A DNA stretch of 44,079 nt from Actinomycetota bacterium (lineage in GTDB: Bacteria; Actinomycetota; Actinomycetes; S36-B12). The stretch lies in NCBI GenBank assembly GCA_016870515.1, contig VGBL01000016.1:1-44079 (forward strand). Direction: 5' to 3'. Both the position numbers and the translations under genes were made by a program. Shown here piece by piece: positions 10,710-27,768 of the stretch; the stretch's first letter is position 1, and each line of letters starts with the position of its first letter. The notes below the pieces were generated by a model. The model searched no databases. It saw only the letters and a program-made list of their open reading frames with translations, and was not told the DNA's origin.

Positions 10710-11498
10710 CTAAGCCGGAGGCACCAGGGTGCCGGCGAAGACCTGCCAGGCCAGGGCCGACTTGGCCACCAGGCTCAGCACGATGTAGGCCGTCTCGCCG
10801 CGCAGATAGTTCGACCACTTGCCCACCGGCTTGTACTGCAGGTACTGCACGAGGGCGAAGCAGTTGAACAGGATGAACAGCGAGATGATGATCCCGTACA
10901 CGAACGCGGGTGTCTGCCCACCGTTGGCTGAGCCTGGGGCGATGACGAAGATCACGATGATGATCCACGGCACGATGCCGGCGATGCAGCCGAACCAGAA
11001 GGGCAGCAGCCCGCCACCGGGATTGACGTACTTTTCCTGTAGCCAGCCGAAGAGGATCATCGAGACGTTGACGCCGAAGATGGCGATGATCGCGGCCACG
11101 TCGGTGATGCCGATGATCTGGGCGATGAGCACGATCATGATCGAGGAGCTGAGGGAGTACTCCACCCACCGGAAGTTGTTGTGCTTCTCGAGCAGTCCCA
11201 CGACGTAGCGGCCGTTGAAGAGCGGGCTTGCCACAAGGAAGTGGAAGAGCGCGGAGAGGCCGAAGAACGCCGCGACACCCCAGGCGACTCGCACGTCGAC
11301 GAGGGTCACCGGATCTGAGAGCGGTGTGCCAGGCGGGCCCGCCATGTAGGACGCGGTGATCGGCAGCGTGAAGTCGGTCGCCAGGATCAGGATCATCAAC
11401 ATCTGCACGAGGTGGAAGAACCCCGCGATGACGTTGAGCCGGCGCAGACGGCGCATGGCGGCGGAGGTCTCCGGGCTCAACTCCACGACGACGGTCAT
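10710..11498 (-). CDS. Heliorhodopsin
   Basis: The 262-residue protein has seven hydrophobic helices and the heliorhodopsin signatures rather than those of type-1 rhodopsins: a His in helix 1 (GFFHLVQ), the counterion Glu113 in VEYSLSSSIM, and Lys246 in the last helix (LSLVAKSALAWQ) for the retinal Schiff base. Heliorhodopsins sit in the membrane with the N-terminus inside, have long photocycles and do not pump ions; their role is unsettled. The ATG at 11498 begins the usual short charged N-terminus and lies six bases after CACACT. It faces the aconitase X/LLM cluster and is divergent from a set of tiny membrane-protein genes. A broken copy lies at 3274-3739. No retinal synthesis gene is in the window. 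Confidence 0.92.
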   Translation of the reverse strand: MTVVVELSPETSAAMRRLRRLNVIAGFFHLVQMLMILILATDFTLPITASYMAGPPGTPLSDPVTLVDVRVAWGVAAFFGLSALFHFLVASPLFNGRYVVGLLEKHNNFRWVEYSLSSSIMIVLIAQIIGITDVAAIIAIFGVNVSMILFGWLQEKYVNPGGGLLPFWFGCIAGIVPWIIIVIFVIAPGSANGGQTPAFVYGIIISLFILFNCFALVQYLQYKPVGKWSNYLRGETAYIVLSLVAKSALAWQVFAGTLVPPA

Positions 11499-11504
11499 GT
11501 GCCC

Positions 11505-11510
11505 AGTGTG
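11505..11510 (-). promoter_or_regulatory. Possible -10 box of heliorhodopsin
   Basis: CACACT on the minus strand, six bases before ATG 11498. The A at position 2 and T at position 6 fit the local leaderless pattern, but the first base does not. Confidence 0.3.
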
Positions 11511-11595
11511 ACGACTGCGTCCTCGCACGCCAGGAGGCGCGCGGGAAGCCCGCTGCGAGACGTTCACCCCGCGACCTCACTGATGCCAGGAGCGC

Positions 11596-11624
11596 TTAAG
11601 ACCCACAACGGATACCACTACGCT
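11596..11624 (+). promoter_or_regulatory. Promoter of the small membrane-protein genes next to heliorhodopsin
   Basis: TTAAGA (11596-11601), a 17-base spacer and TACGCT (11619-11624), then six bases to GTG 11631. This is the most complete leaderless promoter in the left half and decides the start of the first small gene. It faces away from heliorhodopsin. Confidence 0.5.
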
Positions 11625-11630
11625 GTCTAC

Positions 11631-11813
11631 GTGCCCCCCGCTATTGCTGGCGTGGCCCCTCCTCCATTGATCTACCTTTGGGAAGTTGGCGCGGTGCCGA
11701 CCGCTCTCCGGGCGGTGCTGTTTGTCGTCGCCTTGGCGGTATTGGCATTCGGTTTCCTCGACATGCTGATCCGAGACATCCGACACACCTACCATCACTT
11801 CATCGACCGGTGA
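11631..11813 (+). CDS. Small single-span membrane protein beside heliorhodopsin
   Basis: A 60-residue protein with a proline-rich start (PPAIAGVAPPPLIYLWEVG), one clear transmembrane helix (ALRAVLFVVALAVLAFGFL) and a basic, histidine-rich C-terminal helix (IRDIRHTYHHFIDR). The GTG at 11631 is preferred over the in-frame ATG at 11583 because of the -35/-10 pair six bases before it. By the positive-inside rule the C-terminus would be cytoplasmic. It overlaps the next small gene by four bases (GTGA). I do not know a family; divergent position next to heliorhodopsin suggests, but does not prove, a shared function. Confidence 0.55.
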   Translation: MPPAIAGVAPPPLIYLWEVGAVPTALRAVLFVVALAVLAFGFLDMLIRDIRHTYHHFIDR

Positions 11814-11935
11814 AGACCGTGATGGCCATCATGGTGTCCGAGACTCTCCCATTGTTCGCGCTGACCTATATTGCCGTGGCCGCCATTCCCGGCGAGATCA
11901 CCGGCATGAAGACATTCTTGGATGCCGTCTACTGA
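11810..11935 (+). CDS. Very small membrane protein, 41 residues
   Basis: A coupled frame starting at the GTG that overlaps the preceding stop. The product is 41 residues with one hydrophobic segment (TLPLFALTYIAVAAIPGEI) and a short polar tail ending in DAVY. ATG 11822 is an alternative start. No ribosome site is visible, consistent with translational coupling. No family is recognised. Support rests on the overlap and the membrane-protein composition. Confidence 0.45.
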   Translation: MKTVMAIMVSETLPLFALTYIAVAAIPGEITGMKTFLDAVY

Positions 11936-12016: not shown

Positions 12017-12343
12017 CTAGGTGCTCGCGCAGGGAACGCAGAGCACAGCCCATGGGTGAATCTCCAGTCGGCCCTCGGGGATGTCGGCGCCGCAGGAGTC
12101 GCACCGGCCGTAGGTACCATCGTCGAGTTTGGTCAGTGCCCGACTGACCTCCTCGAGTTGCACGAGCAGTTGCTCGTGGGCAGCCACCTGGGTCAGTCGT
12201 TCGACGGCGATACTCGTGCCATCGCCGACTCGCTTGCCGAAGGAGATGCCGCCGGTGGCATCCGGTGCGACCGTGAGGTCGGCTGCTCGGCCGAGCAGGT
12301 CTTGCTGCTTGGCCATCAGCACGTCGCGCACGTCATCTGTCAT
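12017..12343 (-). CDS. DksA/TraR-family zinc-finger protein
   Basis: This 108-residue protein has an N-terminal helical (probably coiled-coil) part and a C-terminal four-cysteine zinc finger, CDSCG ... LCVPC, with 17 residues between the pairs, as in DksA/TraR proteins. Such proteins enter the RNA polymerase secondary channel or act as small regulators. It is the third gene of a minus-strand series: RiPP precursor, TAP-like peptidase, this gene, with 12 bases between the peptidase stop and this ATG. It may regulate the peptide operon or be an unrelated neighbour. Confidence 0.82.
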   Translation of the reverse strand: MTDDVRDVLMAKQQDLLGRAADLTVAPDATGGISFGKRVGDGTSIAVERLTQVAAHEQLLVQLEEVSRALTKLDDGTYGRCDSCGADIPEGRLEIHPWAVLCVPCAST

Positions 12344-12355
12344 CTGGCAGCGTAG

Positions 12356-13870
12356 CTAGTCCAACGGAGGGCTCGGTGTGAAGGCACAGGCGATGTCTCC
12401 ACTCGGCCTTCGCAGCGTGAGCAGGTATCTAGTGACGGTGTCGTTAACGCACGGAGAGGGTGCGAATAGATAGGTCACGTGCTGGGTGCTCGTGTAGGAG
12501 ATCGTGCGCGAGCCGGTGAAGGTGTTGGCCATGCTCCTGCCCCAGGCCCACGGCGTGGCAGCGTCGCCGGTCGACAGGACGAAAATCGGAGGGGTCGCTA
12601 GGTCGATGGGGTCGGTGCCGTGGGGGGATGGTGGAGACAGGTCATCGGGCAGCCCGGCGCACATGGAGGCGTTGGCCATCCACATGACAAAGACCGTGCC
12701 GAAGTCACGGGCTACGGCTCCCGACGCGGCGGCAAGCTGGTCAGCGGTGGGGCGGTCCGGCAGGTCGGCGCAGTTGATCAGTCGAATGGTCGTCGTGCTG
12801 TCGTTGGTCTTAGGCAGCAGCGCGCGGGCGTTGCGAACCGCGTGCGCCGCCCGAGCCTTCTGGGCGCCAGTTTTGGCCTTGACGAGACGGTAGAGCGCAT
12901 CGACGACCTTGCGAATGGTGGGGTACTGAGCCTGCTGGCCGAGTAAGCCCCTGAGTTCCTGCGCAAGTCCCCATCGGTCGATCTGCGTGCCCTTGATCGT
13001 GATGACCTTGCGGTCGAGGTAGTCGAAGATGGCATTCATCTTGTGGGCCTGTGCCTTGCCGTTGATCGAGGCATAGACCTGCTTCGTCACCGAAACCCCT
13101 GAGGGGAACGTCGTACCGAAGCGAAATGCCGTCTCCCCCGCCATGAGGCTTCCGTCCATGATCAGGGTCCGCAGACTCGATGGGAATGTGCGCGCGTAGG
13201 CATGGCCAATTCGCGTGCCATAGCTCATGCCCCAGTAGTTCCACTGCTTGTAGCCGAGGGCTATGCGCATGGCCTCGAGATCGCGGATAACCTGCCAGGT
13301 GCCCAGATAGGGCGCAGCGTTGGGATTGGCCGCCAAGCACTCAGAGTTCGCCTTGGCAAACGCTGCGAACTGCGAGTCCCAGAAGTCCCGCCAGTCGACG
13401 GGTCCGACGAGGGGAGCAGCAAGCCCCTCGGCGGCGGGGCAGTCGGTAAGAGCCGGCCCGCTGAGTCCAACGCCACGTGGGTCCCAGACGACGAAGTCGA
13501 ACCGGTCGCGTACAGCCGCGGGAAGCAACGAGTAGACAGCCGGACCGATGCCGATCGCTGGCTCGCCCGGACCGCCAGGGTTGAAGGTCAGTGCGCCATC
13601 ACGCTGTGCGGAGCGCGTGATGCGCAATGCGATCTTGATGGTCCGCCCATCCTTCGGCTTCTGCCAGTCGAGCGGCACCGTCAACGTCGCGCAGCGCGTA
13701 CGCGCGGGCAGCGCCTCCTTCGCCGGGCAGGAGACGTACTTCAATATCGGCGTGAAGCCGAGCAGCCTCGGGACCGGCGTGGCATCAGGAGGGGCTGCCT
13801 GTGCCGGGGCAACCGTGAGGCCCATGGCGATCAGGCCAACGCTGACCGTGGCGACGAGGATTCGCTTCAT
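12356..13870 (-). CDS. Secreted TAP-like serine peptidase (alpha/beta hydrolase)
   Basis: The 504-residue protein starts with a signal peptide (MKRILVATVSVGLIAMGL, cleavage likely after AQA near residue 30). The alpha/beta hydrolase domain has an NPGGPG oxyanion loop, WDPRGVG, and the nucleophile elbow GMSYG with Ser216. The C-terminal TAP-like domain supplies Asp436 (STGDAATP) and His464 (TQHVTYL). These are the features of actinobacterial tripeptidyl aminopeptidases, which are secreted. The ATG at 13870 overlaps the stop of the RiPP precursor (ATGA), so both are translated together; the longer open frame upstream is not coding. It may trim the exported peptide or protect the cell from it (inference). 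Confidence 0.85.
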   Translation of the reverse strand: MKRILVATVSVGLIAMGLTVAPAQAAPPDATPVPRLLGFTPILKYVSCPAKEALPARTRCATLTVPLDWQKPKDGRTIKIALRITRSAQRDGALTFNPGGPGEPAIGIGPAVYSLLPAAVRDRFDFVVWDPRGVGLSGPALTDCPAAEGLAAPLVGPVDWRDFWDSQFAAFAKANSECLAANPNAAPYLGTWQVIRDLEAMRIALGYKQWNYWGMSYGTRIGHAYARTFPSSLRTLIMDGSLMAGETAFRFGTTFPSGVSVTKQVYASINGKAQAHKMNAIFDYLDRKVITIKGTQIDRWGLAQELRGLLGQQAQYPTIRKVVDALYRLVKAKTGAQKARAAHAVRNARALLPKTNDSTTTIRLINCADLPDRPTADQLAAASGAVARDFGTVFVMWMANASMCAGLPDDLSPPSPHGTDPIDLATPPIFVLSTGDAATPWAWGRSMANTFTGSRTISYTSTQHVTYLFAPSPCVNDTVTRYLLTLRRPSGDIACAFTPSPPLD

Positions 13871-14166
13871 GGGATATAGCTGCATTGGCTGCCGCACTTG
13901 CCGGTCGACAGATCCTCCCAGTACGCGCCGCCGGCGACGAGCTCGAGGTCGGCGTCCTTGAGGTGCTCGCTCGAGGGGATGGTGAGGTGGATCTGGGTGA
14001 GGGATTCCTCGTGGATGACGACCTGGACGTTGTCGGGGATGTCGAAGCCGATGATCGTCGAGACCATGCCGCGGGGGTCGGCGAGGAGTACGTCGCGGAA
14101 GGCAGGGTCGGCGGCGATGCGCTCTGCGATGATCGCCTCGACCTCGGATCGGGTGGGCACGGCCAT
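13867..14166 (-). CDS. RiPP precursor with nitrile-hydratase-like leader
   Basis: The 99-residue product has a leader of about 80 residues that resembles the nitrile hydratase alpha subunit: EVEAIIAERIAADPAFRDVL, LLADPRGM, GFDIPDNVQVVIHEES and HLTIP. It ends in DLELVAGG, a double-glycine cleavage site. After it comes a core of 19 residues, AYWEDLSTGKCGSQCSYIP, with two Cys, three Ser and one Thr that could be modified. This is the layout of NHLP-type (proteusin-like) precursors. The ATG at 14166 is chosen for the AGGAG at 14173-14177; an earlier ATG at 14196 lacks a site. A secreted peptidase gene overlaps its stop. No modifying enzyme or exporter is in the window, so any modification must come from elsewhere. 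Confidence 0.8.
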   Translation of the reverse strand: MAVPTRSEVEAIIAERIAADPAFRDVLLADPRGMVSTIIGFDIPDNVQVVIHEESLTQIHLTIPSSEHLKDADLELVAGGAYWEDLSTGKCGSQCSYIP

Positions 14167-14523: not shown

Positions 14524-14537
14524 GGAGGATGGAAGAC

Positions 14538-14819
14538 ATGAGGAATCCGGTGCATCCCGGTGCAATTTTGCGTGAGGACGTCCTTGTCGAGTTGGGCTTG
14601 AGCGTCAGCGAGGCAGCTGAGCGGCTGGGAGTATCCCGAGTCACGCTGAGCCGAGTTCTCCATGAGCACGCACGCATTTCGCCGAACCTTGCAGTCCGCC
14701 TCGAAGCTGCTGGAGTGGGCACGGCCCGTGCGTGGCTTGCCATGCAGTCAGCGTGTGATCTTGCGGAGGAGCGCGCCTCGGGAACTCCCAAGGTCCGGCG
14801 TCTGGATACCGTGGCCTAG
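14538..14819 (+). CDS. higA: HigA-type antitoxin, orphan
   Basis: The 93-residue protein has the HigA/VapI layout: N-terminal NPVHPGAILREDVL, then an Xre helix-turn-helix (SVSEAAERLGVSRVTLSRVL), ISPNLAVRLEAAG and AWLAMQSACDL. It represses its own promoter and normally neutralises HigB. Start ATG 14538 is chosen because AAGGAGG (14522-14528) lies nine bases before it; ATG 14529 touches that site. The partner toxin is reduced to its last codons, so the antitoxin is left alone. It lies immediately left of the first tRNA-His repeat. Confidence 0.8.
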   Translation: MRNPVHPGAILREDVLVELGLSVSEAAERLGVSRVTLSRVLHEHARISPNLAVRLEAAGVGTARAWLAMQSACDLAEERASGTPKVRRLDTVA

Positions 14820-14825
14820 CAACTC

Positions 14826-14911
14826 GGGGTGAGTGACGGGACTCGAAGGTGCCCGGAAAGCCCTAGTCGCGCTTCAGTTGTGGCCGCAAGGTAGTCGATG
14901 TCAGCGGCATT
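14826..14911 (+). repeat. Attachment-site repeat, copy 1
   Basis: The first 22 bases (GGGGTGAGTGACGGGACTCG plus AA) are identical to 27693-27714, the tRNA-His 3' end. The whole 86 bases match 26315-26400 at 76 positions by hand count without gaps. The extra 64 bases are absent next to the tRNA itself, so they look like a shared element end. Confidence 0.8.
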
Positions 14912-15663: not shown

Positions 15664-17493
15664 TCAGGCCTGGCCTAGAGCCTGTGGAGGCTGCCAGCCG
15701 GGGCGAGGAGCGGCTTCCACCAGCCTCTGTGTGTAGTCGTGTTGAGGACTGTCGAGAACGCGCGAGGTTAGCCCTCGCTCCACGATCTTCCCGTCCTTCA
15801 TGACGATGACTCTGTGTGCAACCTGACGGATGACGGCGAGATCGTGAGAAATGAAGAGATACGTCACCTGGGTCTCCCGCTGCAACTCAGCGAGTAGGTT
15901 AAGTACCTGAGCCTGGATGGACACATCAAGACCGGAAACAGCCTCATCCAGAATGATGGCTTGGGGGCTAGCCGCGAGCGCCTTTGCGATGGCGACCCTT
16001 TGGCGTTGACCACCTGACAACTCGGAGGGCAACGCTGTCCGCATGGCACCCTCTAGTCCAACGCTCGCAAGAAGGCGATCCACCTGGGCTGTACGCCACT
16101 CTCTGCTCTGACCAGGCGAGTTCACGGTGAGGATTTCATCGACAGCTGCAGTTGGCGTCTGCCGAGGGTCAAGGGATGTATAGGGATCCTGAAAGACGAC
16201 CTGCAACTGAGCCGCCCAGTGTCGCCGTTGAGTAGCCGAGCGGGGCCTCGCCCCTCTCGGCTGACCGCTGATCATGACTGATCCCGAATCGGGGGTCTCG
16301 ATTCCGAGCAGAAGGCGTGCGAGTGTCGTCTTGCCGGATCCAGACTCGCCGACGATGCCGAGGCACTCACCGCTGTCGACGGTAAAAGAGACATCGTCCA
16401 CGGCCACGGTGACACCGCCTTGTCGACCCATCTTGAAGGTCTTCCGCAGATTCCTGACCTCCACAACCACTCGACCAGACTCAGGCTCCGTCAGATCTTC
16501 GGAGGGTACGTCAACGGCGAGGGCGAGCTCCGCGCGCAACTCCCCTGAGCGGAAGCACCGGACGTATCCCCCGGAGCCCGCGGTGATCTCTGGCGCAGAG
16601 TCACAGCACGACGCAATTGCGTAGAGGCATCTTGGAGCGAAGGCGCACGACCCCTGGGAATCGTCTGCCGTGGCAGGTTGTCCGCCGATAGCTCTGAGCG
16701 CCGTCGAGCGCCGACTCACCAGAGGGCGCGATCCGATGAGCGCCGCTGAGTACGGATGCCAGGGCGCGTCATGCAGATCCTCAGCGCGTCGAGACTCGAC
16801 AATGCGACCCGCGTACATAACGTCAATGCGGTTGCTCGTGGCGATAGCCAGATCAATGTCGTGAGTTACGAACACAACCGCGAGACCTAGACTTTGCTGA
16901 AGTTGCGTAAGGACTCCCATAATCTCGGCCTGGATGCTCACGTCCAGCGCTGTTGTCGGCTCGTCTGCCAGTAGAAGTCGCGCCCCAGAGCCAATCGCGC
17001 TAGCGATCATGACGCGTTGAAGCATTCCGCCAGAGATTTCATGTGGAAACTGGTTCAGTCGCTCAGCAGGGCTGGATAGGCCCACCGCGCGAAGCCACCC
17101 TTCTGCCTCGATCGCAGCCTCGCCTTTGGACAGCCCTCGGCTTGTGCGCAGCCCCTCGACGAGGTAGTCCCCAATCGACCGAACCGGGTTAATGGATGCT
17201 CGAGGATCCTGGAAGATCATGGCGACGTCCTGACGCCGCACGGTGCGCAACTCCTCCGCTGACATGCCGAAGATGGACCTGCCCTCGAAGAGGACCTCAC
17301 CGGCAATCTTCGCTCGCTCGGGTAAGAGGCCCAAGACCGAACGCACTGTCAGCGACTTTCCGGATCCCGACTCTCCAACAAGTGAGAGCGTCTCACCTCG
17401 ATCCACCGTGAGGGAAACACCATCCAAGAGGACCGCTCTTGAGGAGGAAGGGAGTTGGATTCGGAGATCGGCGATCTCAAGCAACGCAGTCAT
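15664..17493 (-). CDS. Peptide-type ABC importer, fused double ATPase (DppD-DppF)
   Basis: The 609-residue protein carries two complete ABC ATPase domains. Domain 1 has Walker A GESGSGKS, signature ISGGMLQRV and LLLADEPTTALDV. Domain 2, after about residue 330, has GESGSGKTTLARLL, LSGGQRQRVAIAKAL and IILDEAVSGLDV. Between them is the cysteine-rich oligopeptide C-terminal motif (CAFAPRCLYAIASC). Fusion of DppD and DppF in one chain is common in actinobacteria. It powers uptake through the DppB/DppC pore encoded upstream; its ATG overlaps the dppC-like stop by four bases. Confidence 0.9.
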   Translation of the reverse strand: MTALLEIADLRIQLPSSSRAVLLDGVSLTVDRGETLSLVGESGSGKSLTVRSVLGLLPERAKIAGEVLFEGRSIFGMSAEELRTVRRQDVAMIFQDPRASINPVRSIGDYLVEGLRTSRGLSKGEAAIEAEGWLRAVGLSSPAERLNQFPHEISGGMLQRVMIASAIGSGARLLLADEPTTALDVSIQAEIMGVLTQLQQSLGLAVVFVTHDIDLAIATSNRIDVMYAGRIVESRRAEDLHDAPWHPYSAALIGSRPLVSRRSTALRAIGGQPATADDSQGSCAFAPRCLYAIASCCDSAPEITAGSGGYVRCFRSGELRAELALAVDVPSEDLTEPESGRVVVEVRNLRKTFKMGRQGGVTVAVDDVSFTVDSGECLGIVGESGSGKTTLARLLLGIETPDSGSVMISGQPRGARPRSATQRRHWAAQLQVVFQDPYTSLDPRQTPTAAVDEILTVNSPGQSREWRTAQVDRLLASVGLEGAMRTALPSELSGGQRQRVAIAKALAASPQAIILDEAVSGLDVSIQAQVLNLLAELQRETQVTYLFISHDLAVIRQVAHRVIVMKDGKIVERGLTSRVLDSPQHDYTQRLVEAAPRPGWQPPQALGQA

Positions 17494-18311
17494 CGACGTT
17501 CCGTGCCCTCCGAGAGCCGATTCCCGATGATGGTGAAGGCTGCCACCACGGCAAGGATGCAGACGGCAGCAGCAGCGATGCTTGTGTAGCTGCCCTGCAC
17601 AAGACTCGTTGTATCGCCCACCATGACCCCCCAGTCCGGTGCCGGTGGGAGAATCCCTATTCCGACAAAGGACAGGGCCGCGAGATCGACCAGCGCAAAT
17701 CCGAAGGCGATCGTCGCCTGGGCCGTCAGGAATCGCGACAGGTTAGGCAGCAGGTGGTGGAGGAAGATTCTCGTAGTCGACAGTCCTTGGACCTCGCAGG
17801 CGATGATGTATGGCTTGTTTCGCTCTCGGAGTGCTGCGGCGCGCGTAATGCGTGCCGTGTAGGGAATGTAGGCAATTGATACCGCGATGATGGCTGCGGT
17901 GATTCCACGGCCTATAGCAAGGATGATGATGGCCGCGATAAGGACAGTGGGAAACGCGAAAATGAGGTCCAGCGAGCGGCCGATCACCTGATCAAATACG
18001 CCGCCTTTCCATGCTGAAATCAAGGCCAGAGGCACACCGATGAGCAGAGCGAGCGTCACGACCAGCAATGGCCCGAGAAGGCTGGGCCTAGCGCCGTGCA
18101 TGAGCCGCGACAAGATGTCGTTGCCGTCAATGTCAGTTCCGAGCCAGTGAGTCGAGCTTGGCGGCTCGAGTTGGCTGAGGATGCTGCCGCCCGTTGGCTC
18201 GTGAGGCGCGATGATGGGGGCGAAGATCGCGATACCAACGGCAAACACCAGGATCACTACCGAGAGCCATCCGAGAATGCCTGGTCGAACGCGGCGACCC
18301 GATCCCTTCAC
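17490..18311 (-). CDS. Peptide-type ABC importer, permease (DppC-like)
   Basis: The 273-residue membrane protein has about six helices, the N-terminal HEPTGGSI...HWLGTDIDGNDILSRLMHG segment typical of DppC proteins, and the EAA-type coupling loop (AAALRERNKPYIIACEVQGLS). It overlaps both neighbours by four bases in the order dppB-dppC-dppDF. It forms half of the transport pore; the substrate depends on the binding protein encoded at 19379. Confidence 0.88.
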   Translation of the reverse strand: MKGSGRRVRPGILGWLSVVILVFAVGIAIFAPIIAPHEPTGGSILSQLEPPSSTHWLGTDIDGNDILSRLMHGARPSLLGPLLVVTLALLIGVPLALISAWKGGVFDQVIGRSLDLIFAFPTVLIAAIIILAIGRGITAAIIAVSIAYIPYTARITRAAALRERNKPYIIACEVQGLSTTRIFLHHLLPNLSRFLTAQATIAFGFALVDLAALSFVGIGILPPAPDWGVMVGDTTSLVQGSYTSIAAAAVCILAVVAAFTIIGNRLSEGTERR

Positions 18312-19252
18312 TTGCCACCGACCTTCACTCGAGGGTCGAGCAGGCCGTAGGCGATGTCAACCGCAATCCCCAGAGTGACGGTGACAAACAAGATGATGAG
18401 CGCGATCGCTTGGACCAGAGCGAAGTCACCAGCATTCACGCCGGCCAGTAGGAGCGTGCCGGCGCCTCCCAGGTTGAAGGCTTGCTCCACGACTACCGTT
18501 CCCGCTATGAGCGCGGGGACCTGAAGGGCAATGACCGCGAGCATCGGAGGTAGACCGTTCCGGAGAACGTGCCTTCGGAAGACACGACCCTCGGGGACGC
18601 CGCGGGCTACCTCGGTGGTGACATGCGGAGACTCCATCTCGTCCTTCAAGGAGGACCGACCTACCCGGGCCAGAAGCGCCGAAGCGCCGATTGCGATTGC
18701 GAGCGCGGGAAGAAATAGGTGGTAGAGGCTATCCAGTGGACTTTCCCCAGCGCCAACCGTGGGAAACCACCCGAGAACGCGGCCGAAAACGATGGAGAAG
18801 AGGACCGCGACGACAAAGACAGGGACTGAAACTGCGAGGGAGGACCCAAGCGCCACCACAGTGTCAGGCGCACCCTTGTGTCGGGCGGAGACTATGGCAG
18901 CAACAACTCCGAAAACCACGATCAGGAACTCGGCCATGAGGATCAGCATCAAGGAGATGGGAAGTGCCTTTGCAAGAAGCGCTGTCACGCTTGCCTGATA
19001 GACAATCGACTGGCCCAGATCTCCTCGAACGGCGTCTCCGAGCCATAGGAAGTATCGGGCAACGAATGGCTGGTCAAGGTGATACTGCGCGTTGAGTTGA
19101 GCGATGCGCTCGGGGCTCGGTGGCTGATTTCCGAGCAAGGCTGAGATCGGGTCGCCCGGGGCGAGCTCCACCACGGAGAAGATGACGAAACTGCCCACGA
19201 GGAGAAGGGCCAATAGCACCCCCAGCTGGCGAAGTGCGTACCTGCCCATCAC
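18308..19252 (-). CDS. Peptide-type ABC importer, permease (DppB-like)
   Basis: The 314-residue protein starts with a membrane helix and the ELAPGDPISALLG motif near residue 30, as in DppB/OppB, then further helices and the coupling loop (RSSLKDEMESPHVTTEVARGV). It is the first gene of the importer operon on the minus strand and is divergent from the binding-protein gene, with a 126-base promoter region between them. Codon and base use match the rest of inserted segment A. Confidence 0.88.
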   Translation of the reverse strand: MMGRYALRQLGVLLALLLVGSFVIFSVVELAPGDPISALLGNQPPSPERIAQLNAQYHLDQPFVARYFLWLGDAVRGDLGQSIVYQASVTALLAKALPISLMLILMAEFLIVVFGVVAAIVSARHKGAPDTVVALGSSLAVSVPVFVVAVLFSIVFGRVLGWFPTVGAGESPLDSLYHLFLPALAIAIGASALLARVGRSSLKDEMESPHVTTEVARGVPEGRVFRRHVLRNGLPPMLAVIALQVPALIAGTVVVEQAFNLGGAGTLLLAGVNAGDFALVQAIALIILFVTVTLGIAVDIAYGLLDPRVKVGGK

Positions 19253-19378
19253 CCCTCCCCTGCCGGCTCCACGACCCGATTATGGCGAATTCATAGACAA
19301 TTAGTTGACAGAGTGCTAGAAAATGCCACAGATTATTCGGGCACGAACGTTCACTTGTGGTCGGACCTGGGAGGTTCC
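19253..19378. promoter_or_regulatory. Divergent promoter region of importer and catabolic operon
   Basis: An AT-rich stretch between the two operons. A TTGACA at 19305-19310 could be the plus-strand -35, with GATTAT at 19331-19336 as a poor -10 (20-base spacing). No clear palindromic operator was found. It probably drives both operons, with the TetR protein as a candidate regulator. Confidence 0.4.
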
Positions 19379-26143: not shown

Positions 26144-26314
26144 TCGCGGACGCAGGCAGTTTTTGCTCCGAGCTCGCGACTCCCGGCTCTGAGAGTTTCT
26201 GATTGCTGTCGAGTTACCCAACGGCCGTCTGTTGGCCCCTTGCCACCTGAATGCCCCGTCACTGGAAGGACGCCTGCTGAGGTAGGGCCGGAAGACGAAA
26301 GTCCCAAACCCCTT

Positions 26315-26400
26315 GGGGTGAGTGACGGGACTCGAAGGTGCCCGAAAAGCCCTAGTCGCGGTGTAGTTGTGAGTGCAGCGTAGTCGATGTCAGCGACATT
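26315..26400 (+). repeat. Attachment-site repeat, copy 2
   Basis: It begins with the same 22 bases as the tRNA-His 3' end and continues for 64 bases that match 14848-14911. It separates the two inserted segments. The bases just before it (CCCCTTGGGG at 26311-26318) form a short palindrome. The rest of 26144-26314 and 26401-26461 contains no recognisable gene. Confidence 0.8.
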
Positions 26401-27691: not shown

Positions 27692-27768
27692 TGGGGTGAG
27701 TGACGGGACTCGAACCCGCGACATCTGCGACCACAACGCAGCGCTCTACCAGCTGAGCTACACCCACC
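27692..27768 (-). tRNA. tRNA-His (GTG anticodon)
   Basis: Read on the minus strand, the sequence folds as a complete tRNA. The acceptor arms GTGGGTG and CACTCAC pair over seven bases with one G-T. A D-arm (GCTCAGCTGGTAGAGC) is followed by an anticodon stem CTGCG/CGCAG enclosing TTGTGGT, giving anticodon GTG for histidine. The T-arm is GCGGG-TTCGAGT-CCCGT. The extra 5' G (27768) opposite discriminator C is specific to tRNA-His, and CCA is encoded (27692-27694). Its 3' end is the insertion target of segments A and B and remains intact. Confidence 0.93.
27693..27714 (-). repeat. Attachment-site repeat, copy 3 (in tRNA-His)
   Basis: The 22 bases from the T-loop to the encoded CCA of tRNA-His, identical to the first 22 bases of repeats 1 and 2. 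As expected for an integrase target, insertion regenerates the tRNA end. Confidence 0.8.

Follow-up and report, generated by a model that had tools for sequence, protein, structure and literature searches.

An intact NHLP-family precursor gene overlapping a secreted peptidase gene in an actinobacterial genome is most likely a stranded leftover

In the 44,079-nucleotide stretch of actinobacterial DNA analyzed here (contig VGBL01000016.1 of assembly GCA_016870515.1; hereafter, the window), a gene for a RiPP precursor overlaps the gene for a secreted peptidase, which is followed by a gene for a DksA/TraR-type protein. The original prediction interpreted this arrangement as a functional link between the three genes and as a possible minimal, undescribed peptide system. 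The locus thus raises the question whether precursor and peptidase form a maturation pair or whether their overlap has another origin. The features concerned are:

12017..12343, minus strand: DksA/TraR-type C4 zinc-finger protein (PF01258)
12356..13870, minus strand: secreted TAP-like alpha/beta-hydrolase, an S33-type peptidase (PF08386 and PF00561 above cut-off)
13867..14166, minus strand: NHLP-family RiPP precursor gene, 99 aa (TIGR03793 match, homologues, upstream SD)
13927..14154, minus strand: region aligned to TIGR03793, the NHLP leader model (positions 1-77, whole-genome profile search)
14529..14819, plus strand: HigA-family antitoxin gene (TIGR02607, 93.7 bits)
14826..14847, plus strand: att-like repeat, an exact 22-bp match to the tRNA-His 3' end
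27692-27767: tRNA-His gene, containing the 22-bp copy at 27693-27714

The product of the precursor gene reads MAVPTRSEVEA...DLELVAGG, followed by AYWEDLSTGKCGSQCSYIP. Against the leader_NHLP model TIGR03793, it scored 55.9 bits (E 2.9e-15; curated cut-off 50.9), with residues 5-80 aligned to all 77 model positions. The leader (approximately residues 1-80) ends in VAGG, a GG-type cleavage motif, and the short, variable core behind it comprises 19 residues with two Cys, four Ser/Thr and a Trp. Both the NHLP leader ending in LVAGG and the 19-residue core with two Cys and several Ser/Thr had been predicted, and the model match and the translation, respectively, confirmed them. An SD-like GAGGAG precedes the start codon. 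Identity to close relatives was 68-80% and the pairwise leader dN/dS between the window copy and its relatives was 0.15-0.30, which together indicated that the leader is not a chance ORF. Changes private to the leader of the window copy (four synonymous, four non-synonymous) do not show fully relaxed selection. Judged by its sequence, the gene is a genuine NHLP RiPP precursor and a member of a known family.

Matches to the precursor were found in 17 of 146 related genomes, the weakest being distant NHLP or nitrile-hydratase-like matches, and a close-clade profile search of the order (166 genomes, threshold E<=1e-8) returned 11 genomes. Its closest relatives occur in tandem arrays, with three intact copies and one broken copy in genome G002 (contig C242) and three copies each in G112 (C426) and G122 (C242). 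The array leaders share approximately 75-80% identity. At the DNA level, likeness to the window copy begins near the start codon, continues slightly beyond the GG site and, in nearly all cases, ends there. Majority identity among 14 close homologues averaged 0.77 in the leader versus 0.52 in the core; the cores vary in length and sequence, with Trp83 as the sole invariant core residue (14/14) and Cys usually present. This combination of a conserved leader with a hypervariable core is that of RiPP precursors and supports the assignment of these genes to a RiPP-precursor family; the invariable core that would have spoken against the original prediction was not observed.

Enzyme genes adjoin the arrays of the relatives. 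The neighbors in G002 are a 720-aa YcaO to which a TOMM leader-binding domain is fused, sulfotransferase and PhyH-type oxygenase genes, and a gene whose match to squalene cyclases is weak; those in G122 are a YcaO, a radical SAM protein, a sulfotransferase and a DUF2332 protein; and those in G112 are a radical-SAM/SPASM protein and a DUF2332 protein. The YcaO proteins beside the G002 and G122 arrays matched the TOMM leader-binding domain TIGR03882 above cut-off, and TIGR03604 scored under its cut-off even in the relatives. A C39 peptidase domain (PF03412) was detected in 11 of 16 compared genomes, the window's own genome being negative. These gene contents are consistent with a route in which, in the relatives, the conserved leader is probably recognized by the fused YcaO cyclodehydratase or by the radical-SAM/SPASM enzyme and a C39-type exporter-peptidase probably cuts after the GG.

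Known NHLP precursors (TIGR03793; PMC2887384) share with the window gene a nitrile-hydratase-like leader, about 80 aa long with a terminal GG, and a short core containing Cys. The window gene differs from them in that its genome yielded neither a maturation enzyme nor a C39 exporter and in that it overlaps a peptidase gene. Prochlorosin-type (Nif11) families likewise combine a conserved leader with hypervariable cores and have several precursors scattered over a genome; they combine a Nif11 leader with maturation by LanM, whereas here the leader is of the NHLP type and the relatives carry YcaO or radical SAM. In a survey of prochlorosins, LanM was present in 9 of 12 strains, so that precursors without LanM occur (PMC10783134). 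The YcaO proteins with TIGR03882 beside two of the arrays recall TOMM systems with a fused SagD-type cyclodehydratase; unlike in those systems, the relatives' TIGR03604 scores are below cut-off and the fused cyclodehydratase is absent from the window's genome. A literature search for YcaO-associated RiPPs of freshwater actinobacteria retrieved no paper.

The window's genome (G000; assembly of 2.42 Mb, 96.7% completeness) was searched for the usual NHLP companions, a maturation enzyme and a C39 exporter-peptidase, which are not strictly required. Neither was found: the assembly yielded no C39 exporter-peptidase (PF03412), LanC-like protein, YcaO, array-type radical SAM or SPASM enzyme in searches that did give matches in control genomes. 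The suggestion to look elsewhere in the genome for LanM, radical SAM or C39 genes therefore led to none of the LanC-like, array-type radical SAM, SPASM and C39 families. The predicted absence of a modifying enzyme and an exporter thus holds for the searched assembly but, since the relatives have such genes, its reading as the sign of a minimal system is not the simplest one. An oligopeptide ABC transporter in the window (15664-19252; solute-binding protein at 19313) was considered as exporter and rejected as OppDF/OppB/OppC-like by eye. Absence of a maturase is compatible with NHLP membership, because family members are reported from species that have neither TOMM nor lanthionine enzymes and the genes often lie remote from such enzymes; descriptions of orphan NHLP genes exist already (Haft 2010, PMC2887384). 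Such genes also recur in the bacteria compared here: G028 (97% complete; L045, L044, L057) has several NHLP genes, three of them in a tandem array, and its YcaO, C39 and SPASM searches gave no match.

Three further NHLP copies are present in the window's genome, and all are decayed. The copy on contig C2 lacks its first ~20 residues and those on C1 and C11 are fragments, so that the window copy, beside the peptidase gene, is the only intact one of four. The C1 fragment (L006 9567-9843) starts about a dozen bases past a tRNA-Thr gene and the C11 fragment (L007 9239-9552) sits after a degenerate tRNA-Thr-like sequence; the NHLP pieces seem to occupy tRNA-linked integration sites.

In the bases ATGA, the stop codon (TGA) of the precursor gene overlaps the start codon of the peptidase gene (ATG, at 13870), which no SD-like sequence precedes. 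The peptidase consists of an Abhydrolase_1 domain (PF00561) and a TAP-like C-terminal Abhydrolase_4 domain (PF08386), and its N-terminus is signal-peptide-like as judged by eye. In alignment with homologues, the GMSYG Ser and the Asp and His regions are conserved. It thus shares hydrolase and C-terminal domains, nucleophile motif and an apparent signal peptide with the TAP-like secreted tripeptidyl aminopeptidases (Pfam Abhydrolase_4), and the stop/start overlap with a secreted serine peptidase carrying a Ser-Asp-His triad was as originally described. The same was true of the DksA/TraR zinc-finger gene, which begins 12 bases past the peptidase stop and matched PF01258.

Conservation did not accompany this arrangement. 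Among 82 NHLP loci (many overlapping), only that of the window contains a peptidase relative, and none lies in those taken from other genomes. The closest homologues of the peptidase, in the sister genome G001 (contig C357, 73%) and in G005 (63%), have no NHLP gene beside them. The G001 gene occupies the syntenic place, beside heliorhodopsin and ion-channel genes, at a locus in which neither an NHLP gene nor dksA is present. The check on conservation of the precursor-peptidase pair thus gave a negative outcome, so that the proposed functional link between precursor, peptidase and DksA is not supported. Counting the peptidase itself, its genome encodes four homologues (E<=1e-60), with up to seven per genome in the genus, where TAP-like peptidases are a general, expanded family. 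DksA as a pathway regulator was rejected as well, since its place is not conserved: in G005 its gene lies upstream of the peptidase gene (L060, contig C43, 1036-1422), in the window downstream, and at the G001 locus it is missing.

Comparison with G001 also bears on how the two genes came to overlap. In G001, the peptidase gene is preceded by an SD of its own (AAGGAGG) and, immediately upstream, by an att-like element. The window has an element of this kind at 14820-14905, on the far side of the precursor and of the divergent higA, which is placed between precursor and repeat. Because the element abuts the peptidase gene in G001, and because the SD present there is absent in the window, the comparison suggests insertion of a segment carrying higA and the precursor between the att-like repeat and the peptidase gene. 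The boundary of this putative insertion is suggestive rather than fixed, as the shared 64-bp element derives from tRNA-His and occurs a second time in this genome (26312-26394). The 22-mer of the tRNA-His 3' end occurs in three exact copies in the window (14826-14847, 26315-26336 and 27693-27714), with none expected from shuffles, and 14823-14905 is 88% alike to 26312-26394 over 83 bp. These copies resemble att repeats and would belong to one or two old integrative islands of approximately 11.5 and 1.4 kb. The other flank of the peptidase gene is rearranged as well: the ion-channel gene (11616-11932), intact in G001, has a frameshift near 11810 and is truncated at 11932, shortly before dksA. 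Carriage of the precursor by a virus or plasmid was rejected; no relative was found in IMG/VR contigs (pattern search) or phage records, and plasmid matches were limited to distant Tistrella and Azospirillum genes.

The reading that we favor, at a probability of roughly two in three, is that of an orphan NHLP precursor from a lost or unlinked TOMM/rSAM pathway, whose coupling to the peptidase is a by-product of its landing site and not a maturation pair. The precursor would occupy a lineage-specific segment bounded on one side by the att-like repeat and on the other by a secreted peptidase gene that was already there. Since searches for the partners gave none and the remaining NHLP copies have decayed, the peptide, if made at all, most likely receives no maturation. 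Counting against this reading are the intact ORF with its SD and a core of normal appearance (Trp and two Cys), the private leader changes, which do not show fully relaxed selection, and the missing ~3% of the genome, which could hold maturation genes. Given the intact ORF and this missing part, maturation in trans of a functional precursor, by enzymes and an exporter encoded in an unassembled part of the genome or belonging to an enzyme family outside the searches, retains some likelihood, and the distance at which NHLP precursors often lie from their enzymes (Haft 2010, PMC2887384) and the separate contigs of C39 gene and array in G002 agree with it. We nevertheless consider it unlikely, since with YcaO, SPASM, LanC-like and C39 genes all absent at 96.7% completeness several unlinked loci would have to be missing together, and the decay of the other copies in the genome also argues against it.

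The overlap itself invites two further explanations. Exact ATGA overlaps are frequent in selected operons, which counts against a mere by-product, and together with the shared strand and the intact catalytic motif the overlap would fit a dedicated pair, with the secreted peptidase cutting off the leader or trimming the peptide extracellularly. With the pair absent from the NHLP loci of other genomes, closest peptidase homologues that lack an NHLP neighbor, four such peptidases here and as many as seven in a sister genome, and no exporter found that could carry the precursor to a secreted enzyme, this explanation is very improbable, and the peptidase was rejected as leader peptidase. We know of no TAP-like peptidase that acts on NHLP leaders. 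A combined scheme, in which an expressed orphan precursor is matured by enzymes outside the assembly and the co-translated peptidase performs the last proteolytic step, has the slimmest chance of all; if true, such cleavage would be a new type of NHLP processing. There is also little to be said for the idea that the leader protein was kept for something other than RiPP production, such as serving the peptidase as a translational or regulatory cistron: the SD-less peptidase start at the precursor stop and the survival of just the peptidase-adjacent copy speak for it, but the intact copy may be merely the youngest, and we regard such a role as hardly more probable than the scheme just described. 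Under the favored reading of an orphan precursor, the overlap most likely gives translational coupling at most, in that ribosomes probably pass from the precursor to the peptidase start, for which the precursor may now act only as an upstream cistron.

Given the enzymes of the relatives, it is simpler to assume loss or incompleteness than the minimal, undescribed peptide system that had been proposed, and the window precursor is most likely a stranded leftover. Leaders of this RiPP precursor family remain recognizable when their pathway can no longer be detected, and a lone NHLP gene should therefore be compared with its relatives before it is taken for a minimal system. The arrays of the relatives (L040 in G002, L041 in G122, L038 in G112/G001) possibly represent a new modified-peptide family and, with YcaO, radical SAM/SPASM and sulfotransferase genes and invariant-Trp cores, are a better lead for new chemistry than the window gene.

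Contig C426 of G112 (L038) is 99.5% identical over 2381 bp to contig C476 of G001 (L118), two genomes assigned to different families, which probably reflects a contaminated bin or a very recent transfer. The G112 array cluster would accordingly be either native to the window's genus, to which G001 belongs, or part of a bin that is contaminated, and it was dropped as a case from a different bacterial family. Beside higA no HigB was called, and the sequence before higA ends in a possible HigB-like C-terminal remnant (by eye). The heliorhodopsin gene of the window (10710-11567) matched NF038020 with 331 bits and is syntenic with that of G001.
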